Below are positions 9,928 through 64,000 of a stretch of 64,000 bases of DNA, one piece after another. How positions within the stretch are numbered: the first letter of the stretch is position 1; the number at the start of each line of letters is the position of its first letter. The notes beneath the pieces are model-generated. The model saw nothing but the letters and a program-made list of their open reading frames with translations. It was not told where the DNA came from and did not search any database. A program made the translations under genes and the position numbers. The DNA is taken from the NCBI GenBank assembly GCA_031291475.1, contig JARLIY010000132.1:62001-126000 (forward strand), given 5' to 3'. The stretch is from Xanthobacteraceae bacterium (GTDB taxonomy: Bacteria > Pseudomonadota > Alphaproteobacteria > Rhizobiales > Xanthobacteraceae).

Positions 9928-10857
9928 ATGATTAAGCAGTTCAAAACACTAGCGGATTTGAATATCACGTTCAGTGACAATCAGGTCGCCCTAAACCACT
10001 TCAAGACGATCCGCTGGCGCAATGGCGAGTTCTGCCCCTATTGCGGTCACGACAAGGTCTACACGCTTAAAGCGAACCGCTATCAATGCGCCCAATGCCG
10101 CAACACGTTCTCGATTTTGGTGGGGACGATCTTCGAAAACACGAAACTGCCGCTCAAGGTGTGGTTCGGCGCGATCTGGCTTTTGACCAATCATCCGAAG
10201 GGTATTGCCTCCACTACGCTCGCCCGCGATCTCGGCATCACGCAAAAATCCGCATGGTTTGTATTGCACCGCCTTCGCCATGCCGCGCGTACTCAATCGT
10301 TCAATGCTCCGCTCTCTGGTACGGTTGAGGTTGACGAAACCTACGTTGGTGGCCGCAGCCAAAATCGGCACAAGCATGAACGGCGTAAGCGCAAAGGTAA
10401 GGCGGGCGTTGTCAATAAAACGCCCGTCATAGGTGCTGTGGAACGCGGAGGCGACGTTGTTGCCCGCGTTGCCAAATTCGGTGTTGGTGAAGCCGAGCAT
10501 TTTATCAAACAGGTGGTTTCGCCGTCAGCCGATCTTATCGTGACAGACGCGCATCCTGCCTATGCCGCTATGCAGGGTTTGCCTCAGCACGAAATGATCA
10601 ATCATCACATCGGCGAGTATGTCGGTGGTGCCGCGCATACAAACACCATTGAGTCCGTATGGGCACTCTTAAAGCGCCAAATCATCGGTACGCATCATTG
10701 GGTTTCGCCAAAGCACCTTGATCAGTACGTTTCCGAAATGACGTGGCGCATGAACCGGCGCGGATTGTCACCGCAAGACCGCATCAACGAATTATTTGCG
10801 GCTGTCGAAGGGCGGCTCACCTATAAGACGCTCATTGGTGAGGCGGTTATAAAATGA
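9928..10857 (+). CDS. IS1595 family transposase
   Basis: A 309-residue transposase with an N-terminal zinc ribbon (CPYCGHDKVY..CAQCRNTF, residues about 34-58), a helix-turn-helix-like stretch (IASTTLARDLGITQKSAWFVLHRLR) and an ISXO2-like catalytic domain. The acidic residues lie in VEVDETYVGG, LIVTDAHPAY and NTIESVWALLKR, giving a D-D-E arrangement followed by Lys. The stop overlaps the start of the next gene (ATGA at 10854-10857). The length is normal and the frame intact, so it is probably active. Confidence 0.95.
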   Translation: MIKQFKTLADLNITFSDNQVALNHFKTIRWRNGEFCPYCGHDKVYTLKANRYQCAQCRNTFSILVGTIFENTKLPLKVWFGAIWLLTNHPKGIASTTLARDLGITQKSAWFVLHRLRHAARTQSFNAPLSGTVEVDETYVGGRSQNRHKHERRKRKGKAGVVNKTPVIGAVERGGDVVARVAKFGVGEAEHFIKQVVSPSADLIVTDAHPAYAAMQGLPQHEMINHHIGEYVGGAAHTNTIESVWALLKRQIIGTHHWVSPKHLDQYVSEMTWRMNRRGLSPQDRINELFAAVEGRLTYKTLIGEAVIK

Positions 10858-11783
10858 CCGCCTACTCGACAACGGATGCTAATATGCTTTTCACCTTATT
10901 GGGTGAGGAGCGGGGAATGGCTAACGCCGATAGTGCCGCTAATACAGCGGCTGCATTTTCCAGGTTGCGCTTGAGGGTCATTTTGGGCCTCTTGGCGATT
11001 GCTGGAATCCTTTTCAATGCCTTTTCGCATTATGCGGGCCTTTATGTTGGTCTTTGGCTTGAGCCAATCGTAAGAGAATTTGGTTCAGCTCTAATTGTTG
11101 CCGCCGTGATCGGAGGTACGGTCGATTTGTTTTTTAAAGATGAATTTGCGCGCGACGCATTTGTGGCCGCGTTCCGTTACGTTTTGCCTGCCGAACTTAA
11201 GGAAGAAGCACTTCGGATCATAAGCTATAAATTTCTATCCACTGAAAGTCGGATGGTCGTCAGACTGGAGCCGATTCCAGCGACAGATTTGGTGCGTGTT
11301 CATATCAGCCTAGAACGAACCGTTAAAAACATCAGCCGCGAAACCGAAAAGATTTGGATTGGATTCGCAGTTGATGATTGGGGTTTTGCCGGACAGAAAT
11401 CAAAGATCGAAGAATGTAGTTTTAATACTGGAGGCGGCTGGGTGCATTGTGCTGATGAAAAACACGACGATCCAGTGGTCGGCAAGAAACAAGATGACGT
11501 AGAGATAAAATCAGGCGAGACGTACAAAGTGGTAATGAAAGGCTTCGAAATTCACCGGGATAATGACGCGCTGCGGATGTTCCATGCTAATCCCGCAATT
11601 AATCCGATAGTTGAATTACATGCGCCCGCAGATTTTAAGTATGGATGTTCCTTCGGAGTCCCGAGTGAAAAAATAAATCCGTCGAAAATCGACGCCTACT
11701 ATCGTCTAGAGGGCACCCAATTTCCGGGGCAATGCACATACATTCGATGGCGGCACGAAAAGTACCAGCGGGTTGCGCAATGA
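10854..11783 (+). CDS. IS passenger: two-span membrane protein of unknown function
   Basis: A 309-residue protein not assigned to a family. It has an N-terminal cytoplasmic stretch, two hydrophobic segments (about residues 42-62, VILGLLAIAGILFNAF, and 76-92, GSALIVAAVIGGTVDLFF) and a soluble C-terminal domain of about 200 residues rich in beta-type sequence (VVRLEPIPATDLVRVHISLE). Codon usage is more AT-rich than in the chromosomal neighbours. It is coupled to the transposase (ATGA overlap) and to the small gene that follows, so expression depends on the IS promoter. It could be a defence or stabilisation module, or a regulator of transposition; nothing in the sequence decides this. Confidence 0.8.
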   Translation: MTAYSTTDANMLFTLLGEERGMANADSAANTAAAFSRLRLRVILGLLAIAGILFNAFSHYAGLYVGLWLEPIVREFGSALIVAAVIGGTVDLFFKDEFARDAFVAAFRYVLPAELKEEALRIISYKFLSTESRMVVRLEPIPATDLVRVHISLERTVKNISRETEKIWIGFAVDDWGFAGQKSKIEECSFNTGGGWVHCADEKHDDPVVGKKQDDVEIKSGETYKVVMKGFEIHRDNDALRMFHANPAINPIVELHAPADFKYGCSFGVPSEKINPSKIDAYYRLEGTQFPGQCTYIRWRHEKYQRVAQ

Positions 11784-12010
11784 CGAAACGCGCTAAACCA
11801 ACTTCCCCGTTTCGTCTGGATATGGACCCCGACGAGTTTTTGGAGCGGGCCATCCGCACTAAACTTAGTGAGGTTGAAGCCCTGATTAAACGGGGCAAGA
11901 AGGGAAAGCCGCCGGGCACCAAACGCAAGCGGAAGGCGTCCGGCGGTAGCTCTCAATCCGTGGTCAGCCTACGCGACCGAAGGATGGCGAAACGGAACAA
12001 GGGCACCTGA
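11780..12010 (+). CDS. IS passenger: small basic protein
   Basis: A 76-residue, lysine- and arginine-rich protein (MTKRAKPTSPFRLDMDPDEF). It has a short acidic/hydrophobic patch, a predicted helix (FLERAIRTKLSEVEALIKRG) and a basic tail (KKGKPPGTKRKRK..RRMAKRNKGT). The ATG overlaps the stop of the previous gene in an ATGA, so the three IS genes form one coupled operon. Charge and size suggest nucleic-acid binding; the family is not recognised. Confidence 0.7.
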   Translation: MTKRAKPTSPFRLDMDPDEFLERAIRTKLSEVEALIKRGKKGKPPGTKRKRKASGGSSQSVVSLRDRRMAKRNKGT

Positions 12011-12314
12011 CCGCCGTTGGGGCCAGCGCCGCCAATGACCGCGTACATGAACAATCTTGCCGTTGCAGCTAATGCGGTAGTGTGGGGAAACCCAAACAAA
12101 CACGAGTGATCTCCTTTCGGAGCGTTCTCGCGGTTGGGAAATTGAATCCGAGTCCTAGGGGTAGGGTGCGGATTCAACTTCCACCGCGAAATCGCGGTTA
12201 AAGTTGCACCGTCGGCCCATCTGAGCGCACCCACCCGTGTCCCGCAGTCCACCCGCTTATGCGGACCTCTTCAACCTGCGGCTGCGGCCAATATAAACGC
12301 CGATTCTGTCTTGC
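12011..12314 (+). other. noncoding hairpin-rich tail of the IS
   Basis: About 300 bases without a credible gene. Visible inverted repeats are CTCC-TTTC-GGAG at 12112-12123, TTGAATCCG/CGGATTCAA at 12142-12150 and 12169-12177, and ACCGCGA-AA-TCGCGGT at 12183-12198. They could end the IS operon transcript or form a small RNA. The region also has a compact spacing between the first two larger hairpins. Confidence 0.5.
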
Positions 12315-12335
12315 GTCAACTGGTATATAGGTCCC
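12315..12335 (-). repeat. right terminal inverted repeat of the IS
   Basis: Exact reverse complement of the left repeat over 21 bases, followed by the CCAAAGAA target duplication at 12336-12343. Confidence 0.95.
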
Positions 12336-12343
12336 CCAAAGAA

Positions 12344-12945
12344 TCTCGCTCATCGAGGGGCGCCTTTCGCGAGGGCACTTTCGGGAAGCGGAGCGAGAGC
12401 GGACCCCGCGCGCGGGCTTATGCGGCCTGCTCCCGGGCGGCTCCGGGGCACCATCGTCCTGCACTACGACCGGACTGCGAAGACCTCACTGGACTGGGAC
12501 AGGCCGAAGGCGGGCAAAACACCCGCCAAATCCGCGTCCCAGGAAACAAGGGTCTGGAGCTGAGCCATCGGGGTGACAGCCGGTGGCGAGTGCCGCGGTG
12601 TGAGCGCCGAAAGGCGAGCGGTCCCCGCTGGGATCGCTTCCGCGCCCGCGCACATTCAGGCGGCAACGTCTGCTTGTCTGGCGCGGACCAAAGAACTTTG
12701 CGCCTCTCGGCGCTCCGCCTCCCCTCGGCTTATTCGAGGATGGCGAATCTCTTTTGTGGCTTCGTGGGGATGGCTTGGCAAAGCTCGGGTGCTTCGGCGT
12801 CGCGAGGACGAATTTTCTTTTTCCCTCTCCCGCTGTGCAACGAGAGGTCGAGCGGAGGGGAAAGGAGGCTTCGCATTGACCCGCCGCGCCCTTTCGTGTC
12901 ACGTCCCCGACCTTAAATAAGACCCGGAAACGGCTGCGATTCTCG
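12344..12945. other. 600-bp intergenic block upstream of leuS, hairpin-rich
   Basis: No credible gene was found on either strand; the open frames here lack family features and have odd composition. Several inverted repeats are visible: GGCGGG-CAAAACA-CCCGCC at 12509-12527, CCTCG..CGAGG around 12732-12748, and a longer imperfect stem between TTTCCCTCTCCCGCT and AGCGGAGGGGAAAGG around 12830-12870. It may be an untranslated leader, a structured RNA or repeat debris. No tRNA, tmRNA, 4.5S or RNase P signature was recognised. Confidence 0.4.
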
Positions 12946-24971: not shown

Positions 24972-25637
24972 TTAACGTTTGAGGGTGACGGACGAAGGCA
25001 CGCGCCGCTCTTCCCAACCCATCTGCTCCAGTTCGGGCACGGTGTCGTCGAGCAGCGGATAACCGAGACAGAAGTAGCCGATGAACTTCCACTCCGCGGG
25101 CACACGGAGCAACTCCGCGACCTTTGTTGGATCGAGGATGGAGACCCAGCCCACGCCGATGCCCTGAGCGCGCGCCGCCAGCCAGACTGTATGGACGGCG
25201 GTCACGGCGGAGTATTCGATCATCTCCGGCATCGTGTGGCGGCCGAGGCCGTGACCTTGAGCGGTCGAGCGGTCGGCAAAGACGGCGAGGTGCGCCGGCG
25301 CCTCCTCCAATCCGGCGAGCTTGAGCCGGGCATAGAGTCCCGCCCGCTCGCTGTCCTGTGCGGCAAGCGCCTGCGCATTGCAGGCGGCGAAATTCCCCCG
25401 GATCGCGGCGCGGATGGCTTCGTCGTCCACGACGACGAAACGCCAAGGCTGGCTCAGGCCCACCGAGGGTGCGAGACACGCGAGCTCGATAAGGCCATCA
25501 ACGACACCTGCCGGCAACGGATCGCGCCTGAATCGCCGGACGTCGCGGCGCCAGACCAACAGGTCGCGCAGCCGCGTGCGGAAAGCCTCATCGAAGGTGA
25601 TCGATGCTGGTGCCACGATTTTCGCCTTTCCCATCAT
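24972..25637 (-). CDS. bluB: 5,6-dimethylbenzimidazole synthase
   Basis: BluB cuts reduced FMN with oxygen to form the lower ligand of cobalamin. The 221-residue nitroreductase-fold protein has WRRDVRRFRRDP, APSVGLSQPWRFVVV, EAPAHLAVFADRSTAQGHGLGRHTMPE and GIGVGWVSILDP, the standard BluB signatures. ATG 25637 (ATGATG, so 25634 is also possible) overlaps the position where the ancestral cobC stop would lie, so bluB was built to be coupled to cobC. The frameshift in cobC may therefore reduce bluB expression. The frame can be extended to a TTG at 25676. Confidence 0.9.
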   Translation of the reverse strand: MMGKAKIVAPASITFDEAFRTRLRDLLVWRRDVRRFRRDPLPAGVVDGLIELACLAPSVGLSQPWRFVVVDDEAIRAAIRGNFAACNAQALAAQDSERAGLYARLKLAGLEEAPAHLAVFADRSTAQGHGLGRHTMPEMIEYSAVTAVHTVWLAARAQGIGVGWVSILDPTKVAELLRVPAEWKFIGYFCLGYPLLDDTVPELEQMGWEERRVPSSVTLKR

Positions 25638-25682
25638 CCCCGGAAGGAGGCCATGGCGCCTTCGAGACGTCGCCAAGATGCC

Positions 25683-26759
25683 TTATTCGCCGGAAGACCG
25701 AAGCGCAGCCAGTCCGCACGATCCGGGAAAGCGCGCACCCAAATACCAGCGCGCCCCAGATGATTGAACAGCGACTGCGCAGGCTCGGTTCGCGAAGATG
25801 ATTGAACAGCGACTGCGCAGGCTCGGTTCGCGAAGATGATTGAACAGCGACTGCGCAGGCTCGGTTCGCGCTAGCCGGAACAGGCTCGTGCCGCCGACAA
25901 CGTCGAGGCCCGAGTCGACAAGTATCGCGTCGAGCCGGCTTGCGTCTTTCTCCAATCGCCTTCGCGTTCGTTCGATCCAGGTCGAATCCGCCAGCGCCTT
26001 TACGCCGACGGCAAGCGCCGGTCCCGACACAGCCCACGGGCCGAGCGCCGCGCGAAGTCGCGTGGCCAGCACCGGCGCCGCGATCGCAAAGCCCAATCGC
26101 GTACCGGCCAGTCCAAAAAATTTGCCGAAGGAGCGCAGCACGACGATATTGCTGGCCGCCACATCGGCGGTGAGGCTGGCACCGGGCGGCCCGACATCCA
26201 TGAACGCCTCGTCGACCACAAGCATGCCGCCGCGACGGCACAAATCCTTGGCCAGCGCGAGCAAGGCGGTCCGGGTAAAGACCCTGCCGTCGGGATTGTT
26301 CGGGTTGGCATCAATGACGAGCCCAGCACCGCCGCAATCGCCGATCTCGCGCACCGGATGGACGCTGTGCCCGGCCAGTGCCGCGGCGCGAGCATGCTCG
26401 GGATAGCTGGGCGTGAGAATGGCGGCGCGACCGTTGCGTACCAGTCCCGCGACGAGCGGCAGCAGAATCTGCGTTCCCGGAGCCGCTACGACATGCGCCG
26501 CCGATGGCGCGCCGTAGGCGCGCGCGGCAGCGGCCGAAAGCGCGTCAAGGGCGTCGGGATCAGGCAAGCGGGCATAAAGAGCGGGCGAAAAACGCGGCAG
26601 CGGATAGGGATTGGGATTGATCCCGGTCGAGAGGTCGATGAAAGGTTCGACTGCGCCCGGGAATAGGCGCCGGGCGGCGCCAAGGTCGCCGCCATGCACA
26701 AGCGGTTCATCTGCGCCGCCGGTAAGGATCATGTCTGTCGCGCTTGCACTCGTCGCCAT
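25683..26759 (-). CDS. cobC: CobC, threonine-phosphate decarboxylase, C-terminally frameshifted
   Basis: CobC/CobD is the PLP enzyme that supplies the aminopropanol arm of cobalamin. The 358-residue reading has the aminotransferase fold: STGINPNPYP at the N-terminus, APGTQILLPL, DANPNNPDGRVF and the PLP lysine in SFGKFFGLAGTRLGFA. After TEPAQSLFNHL the frame runs through a 38-bp unit present three times and ends in unrelated sequence at 25683. Removing two copies (76 bases) restores GRAGIWVRAFPDRADWLRFG and a stop at 25634-25636 that overlaps the bluB start. The enzyme may lack its last helix as encoded. It is divergent from cobA. Confidence 0.85.
   Translation of the reverse strand: MATSASATDMILTGGADEPLVHGGDLGAARRLFPGAVEPFIDLSTGINPNPYPLPRFSPALYARLPDPDALDALSAAAARAYGAPSAAHVVAAPGTQILLPLVAGLVRNGRAAILTPSYPEHARAAALAGHSVHPVREIGDCGGAGLVIDANPNNPDGRVFTRTALLALAKDLCRRGGMLVVDEAFMDVGPPGASLTADVAASNIVVLRSFGKFFGLAGTRLGFAIAAPVLATRLRAALGPWAVSGPALAVGVKALADSTWIERTRRRLEKDASRLDAILVDSGLDVVGGTSLFRLARTEPAQSLFNHLREPSLRSRCSIIFANRACAVAVQSSGARWYLGARFPGSCGLAALRSSGE
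25758..25870. repeat. 38-bp tandem repeat, three copies, in cobC
   Basis: Units begin AGATGATTGAACAGCG at 25758, 25796 and 25834; the third lacks only its last base. The copies are identical. Because 38 is not a multiple of three, copy number changes alter the cobC frame; four copies, or one, would be in frame with the ancestral end. There are no spacers between units, so this is not CRISPR. Confidence 0.95.
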
Positions 26760-26801
26760 GCTGAATCCCGCGCGCCGCGGCCGTCACCACGGGAGCACGC
26801 C

Positions 26802-27617
26802 GTGACGGCCTCGGATACGTTATCCGCGCAACGCACCGGCGTTCCGGTCCTGGCGCCGGGCCATGTCTGGCTTGCGGGCGCGGGACCGGGCGATCCTGGT
26901 TTGCTGACGCTCGACGCACTCGCCGGCCTCCAGCAAGCCGATGTAGTGGTTCACGACGCGCTGGTCGATCAAGGCGTGCTGGCGCTTGCCGGCAAGCAAG
27001 CGCGCCTCGAATTTGCCGGCAAACGCGGCGGCAAGCCGTCGGCAACGCAGGTCGATATCAGCCAGCGGCTGGTGGCACTGGCGCGCGCCGGACAACGCGT
27101 GCTGCGGCTCAAGGGCGGCGATCCCTTCGTCTTCGGCCGCGGCGGCGAAGAGGCGATGACGCTCGCGGCCGCGGGCATTCCCTTCCGCGTGATTCCCGGC
27201 GTCACCGCCGGATTGGCGGCATTGGCGGCGGCATCGATCCCGGCGACTTTGCGCGGCGTCAACCGCGCCGTCATCTTCGCCGCCGGCCATGGCGCCGAGG
27301 AGAACTTCGATTGGGCGCCGCTCGCCCGCGCCGGGCAGCCGATCGTGCTCTACATGGTGATGCACAATCTCGAACGGATCGCCGCCGACTTGATGGCGGG
27401 CGGGCTCGCGCCGCGAACTCCCGCCGCCATTATCGCCGCGGCGGCAACGCCGAAAGAGCGCGTACTCGTCACCACGCTAGAAAAACTTTTTGCCGACGCG
27501 CAGGAGCAGAAATTCGAGCCGCCGGCGATCGTGGCGATCGGCGAGATCGTGGATTTTCGCTCTCGCCTGCGCGGAAAGAACGTCACGGCGGGAAAACCCC
27601 GCAAGGAGCACAAGTGA
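26802..27617 (+). CDS. cobA: uroporphyrinogen-III C-methyltransferase
   Basis: CobA performs the first two SAM-dependent methylations from uroporphyrinogen III to precorrin-2 for cobalamin. The 271-residue protein has the SUMT motifs VWLAGAGPGDPGLLTLDAL, VVHDALVD, RLKGGDPFVFGRGGEEA and IPGVTAGLAALAAASIPAT. GTG 26802 is preceded by GGGAG six bases away. Its TGA overlaps the GTG of cobB. It is divergent from cobC with 42 bases between them, too short for a riboswitch. Confidence 0.92.
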   Translation: MTASDTLSAQRTGVPVLAPGHVWLAGAGPGDPGLLTLDALAGLQQADVVVHDALVDQGVLALAGKQARLEFAGKRGGKPSATQVDISQRLVALARAGQRVLRLKGGDPFVFGRGGEEAMTLAAAGIPFRVIPGVTAGLAALAAASIPATLRGVNRAVIFAAGHGAEENFDWAPLARAGQPIVLYMVMHNLERIAADLMAGGLAPRTPAAIIAAAATPKERVLVTTLEKLFADAQEQKFEPPAIVAIGEIVDFRSRLRGKNVTAGKPRKEHK

Positions 27618-28930
27618 CCACGCGCGGGCTGATCATCGCCGCGCCGCATTCCGGGGCCGGCAAGACGACGGTGACGCTCGCGCTTCTTGCCGCCCTGGCG
27701 CGGCGCGGCGATGTGGTGCGCGCGGCGAAGACCGGGCCGGATTACATCGATCCCGCCTTCCATTCCGCGGTTACCGGTTCGACCGGAGTGAATCTCGATT
27801 CCTGGGCCATGCCGGGGACGCTTCTTGATGCGCTCGCTTCGCAAGCGGCTCGCGGCGCCGATGTCCTCGTCATCGAAGGGGTCGTGGGCTTATTCGACGG
27901 CGCACCGGGAATTTCGGGCCGGCGCGGCGCGACCGCCGACCTCTTCGACTTGCCGGTCGTGCTTGTCATCGATGTCGCTCGCTAGGCGCAATCCGCCGCC
28001 GCTTTGCTGCGCGGCTTTGCGGCGCACGATCCCGCTGTCCGCATTGCCGGCGTCATCCTCAATCGCGTCGGCAGCGAACGGCACCGCGCGCTTGTGGCCG
28101 GCGCTATCGCCGCACTCGCCATGCCGGTCCTCGGCGCGCTTCCGCGCGACGCGGCGCTCACGCTGCCGGAGCGGCATCTCGGCCTCGTCCAGGCAAGCGA
28201 GCATCCCGACCTCGCCGCGCTGGTCGCGCGCCTCGCCGATATGGCAGAGCGTTATTTCGATCTCGACGCCATCGCCGCCACCGCCGCGCCGATCAGGCTC
28301 GCGGCAACGTCTTCCGCCGCTTTGCCGTTGCCGCCGCCGGGCCAGCGCGTCGCGCTGGCGAGCGACCGCGCTTTCACCTTCGTCTATCCGCACCTGATCG
28401 ACGCATGGCGCAACGCCGGCGCCGAAATCCTGCCATTCTCGCCGCTCGCCGACGAGCCGCCGCCGGAACGCGCTGACAGCTGCTGGCTCCCGGGCGGTTA
28501 TCCCGAACTGCATGCGGAAGGGCTCGCCAACGCCCGAGAATTTTGCGCTGGCTTGCGGCGCTTTGCGCAACCGCGGCCGGTCCACGGCGAGTGTGGCGGC
28601 TACATGCTTTTGGGCGAGAGACTCGAAGACGCGGCCGGCGGGCGCCATCCCATGACCGGATTGCTCGGGCACACAACGAGCTTCTTAAAGCGCAAGCTGC
28701 ATCTCGGCTACCGTACCGCGCGGCTTCTTGCCGACGGCGCGCTTGGCCGTGGCGGAGTGACCGTGCGCGGCCACGAATTCCATTACGCGTCGCTAACTTC
28801 GGCCGGGTCCGACGAGCCCTTCGCGGACGTCACCGACAGCGAGGGCCGTGCCGTGGAAAAGACCGGCGGACGACGCGGCCGCGTCACCGGCACTTTTTTC
28901 CACGCCATCGCTGCGGCGGATGTGCCGTAA
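27614..28930 (+). pseudogene. cobB: cobyrinate a,c-diamide synthase, interrupted by TAG
   Basis: CobB amidates cobyrinate using glutamine. The reading frame from GTG 27614 to 28930 is family-like throughout: APHSGAGKTTVTLAL (P-loop), KTGPDYIDPAFH, VEGVVGLFDGAPG near residue 90, then LPGGYPELHAEGLANA and the glutamine amidotransferase nucleophile in HGECGGYMLLG. It is interrupted by TAG at 27983-27985, between VLVIDVAR and AQSAAALLRGF, where a Gln codon (CAG) is expected from the family. The frame itself is not shifted, so a single C-to-T change explains it. Without suppression only 123 residues would be made. A sequencing error is the main alternative. Confidence 0.9.
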
Positions 28931-57191: not shown

Positions 57192-57301
57192 GCGATCACC
57201 AATTCGGGCCCGCCGCGAGCGGCTGCGGAATATGGGCAACCGCGATCTAACCCGATGCCCGGCTTGACGGAAAGGCGCCCTGGGCGTATGAGCCATCTTA
57301 T

Positions 57302-57363
57302 CCCGTGGTCATTTGAGCCGGCCGGCTTGCAGCCACGTAAAACAAGTTGCTAAAAGGCCGGGG
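57302..57363 (+). ncRNA. SAM-II riboswitch
   Basis: The sequence CCCGTGGTCATTTGAGCCGG, then GGCTTGCAGCCACGTAAAAC and AAGTTGCTAAAAGGCCGGGG, matches the SAM-II (metA motif) consensus almost base for base. Stem P1 is CGTGG/CCACG, the loop carries TCATTTGAGCCGG, and the 3' GCTAAA-AGGCCGGG closes the pseudoknot. It lies 70 bases before metZ and is followed by a terminator. SAM-II binds S-adenosylmethionine and turns off methionine genes. Confidence 0.95.
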
Positions 57364-57372
57364 ACGCTTGAG

Positions 57373-57412
57373 CCCGGCCAGAGGATTATGCCTCTCGGCC
57401 GGGTTTTGTTTT
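57373..57412 (+). terminator. intrinsic terminator of the SAM-II leader
   Basis: CCCGGCCAGAGG (57373-57384), loop ATTATG, CCTCTCGGCCGGG (57391-57403), then TTTTGTTTT. The 5' arm CCCGGCC can also pair with GGCCGGG at the riboswitch 3' end (57357-57363), so the two folds compete. Confidence 0.9.
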
Positions 57413-61423: not shown

Positions 61424-62184
61424 CAATGTGTCGTCTGTACTTTCTCGGCGTCCGGATGACCGGCATTGATGATCTGCGCCGCTAATGCCCGGCCAATACA
61501 TTCGTGTACATGGCGCGCCATAGCATACCCGTTAGTGGCCGAATAGAGGTCAAATATACCCGCGTCGCTCCAATAATGCATGATGCCCAATCGGTCGAAC
61601 AGCACGATGCCGCGCTGCTCGGTAACCCAGCGCATCACATCCGCAAAAGCGGAGATACCGAGCATGGATTCAGTGCGCGGACTGAATTGCATGTTCATCA
61701 GGATCGCGTCGGCGCCGGCCGAGGCGATGGCATCGAGGCCTTGATCGAGGCTGGTGCGGAATTCCTCCGGTTCGACGCCGCGCAGCGCGTCGACAGTGCC
61801 GGCCTGCCAGATCACCAAAGCCGGTTTGTCGTCGGCGAGGATTTTGGCCAGGCCGGCCGCCATATCCGCCGTGGTCAGCCCGGACGAGATATGCGCCGTC
61901 ACCTTGATCTCGTTCCCCGGTAAACGGTCTCTCAGCGCCTGTTCCAGCTGCGCCGGATAGGAGAAGCGCGCGCCCTCCGGGCCGCTCAGCGCGGAGGACC
62001 GCGAACCGACGACGCTGATGTCCAGCCGGTGGCGATCCTTAATTTCCGCGTTCACCCGCGGCAGATCGTTTTGCGCCACGATCAGCCATTCCGGCACGTC
62101 GCAATCCGGCGTCGGCTCCGACTCCGCCGCAGCGGCGCCGTGCATCAGCGCAATCGTAGCGAGAACGGCAATAATCGGCCTCAT
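61423..62184 (-). CDS. SGNH-fold exported protein, probably non-catalytic
   Basis: A 253-residue paralogue of the next gene with a signal peptide (MRPIIAVLATIALMHGAAAA). It aligns with that SGNH hydrolase through SYPAQLEQALRDRLPGNEIKV and LVIWQAGTVDALRG. Key residues are altered: the Asn block reads QAGTV (Val for Asn), the Gly block is SSGLTT, and the region matching DGLHMND reads SATNGYAMARH, so the Asp-His dyad is missing. It may be a glycan-binding or scaffold partner. It overlaps opgC by four bases upstream. Confidence 0.78.
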   Translation of the reverse strand: MRPIIAVLATIALMHGAAAAESEPTPDCDVPEWLIVAQNDLPRVNAEIKDRHRLDISVVGSRSSALSGPEGARFSYPAQLEQALRDRLPGNEIKVTAHISSGLTTADMAAGLAKILADDKPALVIWQAGTVDALRGVEPEEFRTSLDQGLDAIASAGADAILMNMQFSPRTESMLGISAFADVMRWVTEQRGIVLFDRLGIMHYWSDAGIFDLYSATNGYAMARHVHECIGRALAAQIINAGHPDAEKVQTTH

Positions 62185-63479: not shown

Positions 63480-63706
63480 CCACCATGAAGATCATGCGCC
63501 ACCATAATGATATAGCGCGAATCAATTCAATCGGAGCGATTGCGCTCTAGGGCGCGTACTCATAAATCGAGCTTGATTGGTGCGGCTCACTCGATGTCCG
63601 CTATGCCTCGATAGCGACCAAATTCTGCGCCGCAGCGAAATGTCGCGATGGGCCAACAAGAGACATCGACGTTGACGACCCCAGCGCACCTAAATACAAT
63701 TTACGG

Positions 63707-63880
63707 GACGGTTCCCCGTTGGGGATAAATGGGAACGCAGTGCGGGCGAGACCTCGCTCAACTCTGCGGCTGCCCCCGCAACTGTAAGCGGCGAATCTTT
63801 CGTCATAATGTCCACTGGGACACTCGGGTCCTGGGAAGGCGACGGAGGGTGTAGACCCGTGAGCCAGGAGACCTGCCGTC
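63707..63880 (+). ncRNA. cobalamin riboswitch
   Basis: The adenosylcobalamin aptamer is complete. P1 is GACGG (63707-63711) with CCGTC (63876-63880). The core has CTGCGGCTGCCCCCGCAACT and GTAAGCGG at 63764-63791, TCCACTGGGA, GGGAAGGCGACGG and the B12 box AGCCAGGAGACCTGCC at 63862-63877. It points rightwards, so it controls a gene outside the window, typically a cobalt transporter, cobalamin biosynthesis or B12-independent enzyme gene. 63881-64000 would hold the expression platform; no gene start was assigned there. Confidence 0.95.
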
Positions 63881-64000
63881 AGCCGTGGTCATACGCGAGC
63901 GCTGTCGGTCGGGGTGAACTGACGGTAGGCGAACCAATCATCCTAGTCGGATGAGCGGGACACCAAGGTCGCGGTGACGTGCCACAGGGCGGGTTACCCG

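Follow-up and report, generated by a model that had tools for sequence, protein, structure and literature searches.

Tandem array in cobC and apparent erosion of the cobalamin-synthesis cluster in a Xanthobacteraceae draft genome

Spontaneous tandem duplications within the reading frames of pneumococcal capsule genes were reportedly described by Waite and co-workers in 2001 and 2003. With regard to the pathway considered here, CobC makes the aminopropanol-phosphate precursor that is attached by CbiB. Erosion of cobamide synthesis, by deletions as well as point or frame lesions in several cob genes, is reported for the Mycobacterium tuberculosis complex in the available sections of one study (PMC12713380), and the accessible text of another predicts partial cobamide pathways in 17% of bacteria (PMC6461909). 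A literature search combining cobalamin biosynthesis with the terms pseudogene, auxotroph, salvage and Alphaproteobacteria found nothing.

Here, we analyzed the cobC region within a stretch of 64,000 bases (the window), which corresponds to positions 62001–126000 of C71, a contig of 421,477 bases. The genome is a draft of 4,011,765 bases in 172 contigs with 95.62% completeness and 5.13% contamination, for which reason absences in it are not proofs. It was compared with 19 others of the same genus, drafts of 60–99% completeness, so that gene absences there and in our own genome are weak evidence singly. Overall, we consider it highly likely that cobC broke recently and is a remnant of an eroded cluster for cobalamin synthesis in a B12 importer, with a recent and inconsequential tandem array; we hold this reading short of near-certainty because the gene absences come from a draft.

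The 38-base array and the cobC reading frame

The cobC gene (threonine-phosphate decarboxylase family) spans positions 25683–26759 on the minus strand, and its product of 358 residues matched TIGR01140 at 294.1 bits (cut-off 290.55). Within it, TRF detected a tandem array with a 38-base unit at 25758–25870 (period 38, 100% matches, score 226). An earlier note on this DNA had described three identical 38-base units at this site; their location and identity hold, but the third copy lacks its last base, the copies at 25758–25795, 25796–25833 and 25834–25870 measuring 38, 38 and 37 bases, respectively, and the array 113 bases rather than 114. Elsewhere in the window, TRF returned four weak rows (1.9–2.3 copies, scores 50–74). 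By an exact-repeat criterion (period 10–299, with a matching run of at least 20 bases and at least 0.8 of the period), the array was the sole one in the window, and the same criterion gave none in five 20-kb stretches taken from elsewhere in the genome. The array is not due to chance. It is unique in the draft genome, and since no other occurrence of the 38-mer at up to three mismatches was found in these 4.01 Mb, a dispersed repeat or mobile element was rejected as the source of the unit. The copy number of three is that given by the draft assembly of this one genome.

Both array junctions carry a base (T on the coding strand) that is given by neither single-copy flank, and no repeat common to the flanks was seen, pointing to a first duplication of the illegitimate type and a later slippage step that brought the number to three. 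A simple 38-base tandem duplication does not account for a length of 113 bases; this length could be due to a later substitution or to the insertion of one base at a junction, and CTT at the relevant Leu codon was present in one of 16 relatives (L011). A change in the copy number of the array itself is possible. The unit contains an imperfect palindrome, and hairpin-driven instability was rejected because unit and array do not fold notably better than shuffled sequences (z of 0.77 and −0.69, respectively).

The effect of the array on the reading frame was as the earlier note had described, with the present frame ending in unrelated sequence at 25683 (stop codon 25683–25685; last 49 residues unrelated). 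Among scripted versions with one to five units, those with one (349 aa) and four (387 aa) ended in the family C-terminus, which was not reached with two, three or five; the statement that one or four copies are in frame, and two or three not, was thereby borne out. As also proposed, removal of two units restored the family C-terminus and a TGA (25634–25636, minus strand) overlapping the bluB start (ATGATG), and the four-unit frame likewise ended in a TGA overlapping this start. The present CobC and its one-unit form have 309 residues in common, after which the last 40 are lost and 49 unrelated ones gained. The lost residues include a WLRFGLP stretch conserved in relatives, and in the intact orthologue L004 the lost C-terminal region aligns to the C-terminal part of a solved threonine-phosphate decarboxylase (9jfb). 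A second cobC was rejected, the other two matches in the genome being distant (E of 4.0e-9 and 1.7e-6). Downstream, bluB (24972–25637, minus strand; 221 aa from the first of two ATGs) is intact, and its product matched TIGR02476 at 264.7 bits (cut-off 150). The idea that cobC had been unhooked from bluB was correct in that the frame analysis showed loss of the stop/start overlap, but bluB retains its own start codons.

cobC in related genomes

An orthologue of cobC (E < 1e-50) was present in 16 of the 19 same-genus genomes, and 13 aligned sequences of its product were 65–75% identical to our CobC. Among the named matches listed, the loci closest in CobC came from metagenome-assembled genomes of Xanthobacteraceae, and most of the next ones from Mesorhizobium or other rhizobial relatives; a few belonged to Rhodospirillales or further groups. 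The source of our DNA is therefore probably a member of the Xanthobacteraceae that has not been cultured. Single-unit spacing was observed in all 16 same-genus orthologues and in all 80 of the best wider loci listed, 78 of them by pattern and two (L046 and L078, off-pattern only at the residue before Gly) by eye; the two sets overlap in part, L035 and L003 apparently being one locus. This supports the single ancestral unit that the earlier note had assumed, and its counter-case, orthologues that all carry three copies, does not apply, all 96 loci being single-unit. Likewise, no tandem array was found within cobC in any of these 96 loci, the positions being compared by hand, and six exact arrays were detected in 779,033 bases of related loci (1.9–2.25 copies, periods 16–27), none of them within cobC by coordinates. 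Based on spacing and array scan, a repeat conserved in the family was rejected for the loci examined.

A bluB gene, 72–81% identical and at most 1.5 kb downstream of cobC, was found in 11 of the 16 same-genus loci; it was not found in the flank sequence examined for the other five. The cobC of one same-genus genome (L015 in G019) has an in-frame TAA of its own at codon 42, which may be real or a sequence-quality problem, given that the bases immediately following seem unusually rich in A+T.

Lesions beside cobC and the remaining B12 equipment

In relatives, cbiB is encoded on the other strand, and its start either coincides with that of cobC or lies slightly inside it. At the corresponding place in the window, 33 bases on the plus strand (26731–26763), overlapping the cobC start, match the first 11 cbiB codons of relatives (MSVALALVAML) and are followed by an abrupt change, and tblastn of the G001 CbiB frame against 180 kb of our own sequence stopped at 26763. 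This comparison identifies the stretch as a fossil 5′ end of cbiB, the remainder of which is missing. Joined directly to it is a segment (26764–26801, plus strand) resembling by eye the cobA leaders of L122, L119 and L125, and then cobA, the gene for uroporphyrinogen-III C-methyltransferase (26802–27617, plus strand), as an open frame from GTG; NF004790 matched at 281.8 bits (cut-off 198) for the frame 26694–27614. Judged from the comparison with relatives, there is a deletion junction at about 26763/26764, its edge being upstream of the cobC start codon by 4 bases.

The gene order in G001 is cobC-cbiB-cobQ-cobO-cobP-cobW-cobN, and cobC, cbiB, cobQ and cobN are on one contig also in G002 and G014. 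On a second contig, that of G004, the order is cobN-cobI-cobJ-cobL-cobM-cobA-cobB, with cobL recognized by the CbiE model, so that the genes between cbiB and cobA in relatives are cobQ, cobO, cobP, cobW, cobN, cobI, cobJ, cobL and cobM. If the ancestor had this order, the deletion would have comprised approximately 15–16 kb (cbiB to cobN in G002/G001 plus cobN to cobA in G004), an estimate pieced from two contigs, no single contig spanning the whole order. When 13 frames of the relatives' cluster, including cobO, cobP, cobW, cobJ, cobL and cobM, were compared with 180 kb of our own sequence, four matched, namely the cbiB stub and three weak matches (cobQ, cobM and cobI) within cobB or cobA.

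Profile searches of our draft genome gave no match for cbiB, which was over cut-off in 13 of the 19 same-genus genomes; nothing over cut-off for cobQ (13 of 19), with only a weak match inside cobB; no match for cobN (over cut-off in eight of 19, some match in 12); and none over cut-off for cobI, with three weak matches, one of them cobA. Since cobI was over cut-off in only eight of the 19, its absence alone says little. One relative, G007 (~90% complete), lacked a cobC orthologue as well as any match for cbiB or cobN, and had neither cobQ nor cobI over cut-off. With no CbiB and no corrin ring, CobC would be left without an evident role.

A further lesion was observed in cobB, the gene for cobyrinic acid a,c-diamide synthase (27614–28930, plus strand), which carries an in-frame TAG at codon 124 (27983–27985) and is otherwise an open, family-like frame. 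This codon encodes Gln (CAG or CAA) in all 11 same-genus orthologues covering it; the count leaves aside the distant paralogue L131 (40% identical, ACG there) and three partial loci that begin after the codon. Reading of TAG as a residue is unlikely because this codon terminates 15 of 60 window frames selected heuristically. The cobB nonsense codon and the cbiB stub at the deletion junction are lesions independent of that in cobC.

Substitution rates and invariant residues were also compared. Median dN and dS of cobC were 0.233 and 0.973 between our genome and 14 relatives, and 0.234 and 0.939 among the relatives; the respective values were 0.177 and 0.900 versus 0.186 and 0.983 for cobB, the set of which includes the distant paralogue L131, and 0.148 and 0.727 versus 0.144 and 0.757 for cobA. 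L015 (internal stop) and L018 (partial) were omitted for cobC, as were partial loci for cobB and cobA. Our cobC is altered at two of 81 otherwise invariant residues (0–5 of 79–84 in 14 relatives) and our cobB at two of 104 (0–5 of 102–107 in 10 relatives; 86 of 188 in the paralogue L131). Neither rates nor invariant residues showed relaxed selection in the form of raised protein change in cobC or cobB. As protein change in both genes is not accelerated, the lesions look recent, and the perfect identity of the array copies agrees with recent change. Both cobC and cobB still show purifying selection, an observation compatible with recent damage and likewise with continued use of the gene.

With regard to B12 acquisition, a cobalamin riboswitch (RF00174, 120.4 bits) is located at 63694–63894 on the plus strand. 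It precedes a TonB-dependent receptor starting just beyond the window (L138:11–2206), the best NCBIfam match of which is the B12 receptor at 265.8 bits, below the cut-off of 599.7. The nucleotide-loop genes cobT (TIGR03160) and cobS (TIGR00317) are present over cut-off at about C71:172.8–174.7 kb, in the same draft genome in which cobN gave no match and cobI none over cut-off, and metH is present as well. Together, riboswitch and BtuB-like receptor, bluB, cobT, cobS and metH would represent equipment for using, and perhaps remodelling, imported corrinoids.

Other features of the window and its flank were also recorded. An IS4/IS5-family transposase is located at L138:5480–6301 (C71 ~131.5 kb), a few kb past the BtuB-like receptor. 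A SAM_alpha riboswitch (57295–57373, 78 bits) lies upstream of an O-succinylhomoserine sulfhydrylase gene, and 20436–22226 matches only positions 375–947 of the 949 in a bifunctional transaldolase/phosphoglucose isomerase model. At 9928–12916, two adjacent 309-aa frames and their neighbours have a third-position G+C of 0.47–0.66, below most of the window, and were possibly acquired.

Explanations and comparison with known systems

We propose that B12 would enter through the BtuB-like receptor under riboswitch control, and that BluB, CobT and CobS would handle it for enzymes like MetH. With B12 imported, selection on cobC and cobB would have lapsed, and an ordinary illegitimate tandem duplication in cobC, then a slippage step to three copies, would have been tolerated; the array copy number may drift but would control nothing. 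Because much of the B12 pathway has apparently been deleted, the cobC break looks like ordinary gene decay and not like an on/off switch. The earlier note had suggested the latter as possible, with slippage of 38-base units switching cobC and the coupled bluB on (one or four units) and off (two or three). Unit number does set the frame as this would require, one and four being open and two, three and five not, the perfectly identical copies mean recent change, and phase variation by tandem duplication within the reading frame is reported for pneumococcal capsule genes, as cited in the portion of PMC4022640 at hand. However, cbiB, cobQ, cobN and cobI were not found in the draft, cobB was broken separately by its nonsense codon, the array is absent from cobC in all of the 96 related loci (best 80 wider plus 16 same-genus), and bluB does not depend on cobC for start codons, so that a reversible switch is not supported and such phase variation is highly improbable. 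We regard as more improbable still the joint reading of a live switch in which some cells have one or four units, CobC serves a residual purpose, e.g., providing an imported corrinoid with its aminopropanol-phosphate linker via an unrecognised CbiB, and bluB translation is tuned by the stop/start overlap.

It is unlikely, though less so than the switch, that the assembly gives a false copy number and that cells carry a single unit (the assembly being chimeric), at least four (the array having collapsed) or a mixture. The draft is possibly metagenome-assembled, as are its named relatives, and short reads cannot resolve repeats totalling more than 150–300 bases according to the available text of PMC12817950; the three-unit array (113 bases) is below this limit and a four-unit one (151 bases) at its edge. 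By our own reasoning, the novel T at the junctions means that at least a two-unit junction should exist in the reads, and an error in cobC would leave the cobB TAG and the cbiB-cobA junction unexplained; a wrong copy number would be compatible with decay of the cluster in any case. That the missing genes lie in the unassembled part of the genome, leaving a nearly complete pathway with lesions in cobC and cobB only, is very unlikely: completeness is 95.62% and several same-genus drafts also lack one or more of them, but four families are missing together, the stub shows that cbiB was truncated where it normally adjoins cobC, and cobA and cobB, which in G004 lie next to the corrin genes, are on our 421-kb contig without them.

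Under the reading of cobC as a decayed remnant, the locus provides a snapshot of an apparent recent step from making to importing B12, with a deletion junction that still bears a legible stub, a frameshift due to a repeat and a nonsense codon all within about 2.3 kb, in a genus in which many relatives retain large parts of the cob cluster. The cobC array has little standing as a switch, and the case illustrates that, for a switch-like repeat, the condition of the pathway concerned needs checking.

Like the phase-variable promoter repeats in the accessible part of PMC12817950, the cobC array is a long-unit tandem repeat with a potentially changing copy number, but those repeats vary across isolates and within populations, whereas the array was found in one genome and in none of the relatives examined. 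As in the pneumococcal capsule duplications outlined in the available sections of PMC4022640, a stretch of reading frame has been multiplied head to tail, doubled in that case, so that the gene is broken and exact removal is able to restore it; the pneumococcal duplications, however, are reported there to switch a working pathway and to revert, while the pathway of cobC looks dismantled in the one genome at hand. There is also a resemblance to the M. tuberculosis complex, for which the parts of PMC12713380 that were available describe deletions together with point or frame lesions affecting several cob genes within a single lineage. In contrast to the eroded-pathway cases as presented in those sources, the lesions here include a tandem triplication within cobC, while cbiB and, probably, most of the corrin-ring genes were lost through one apparent deletion.
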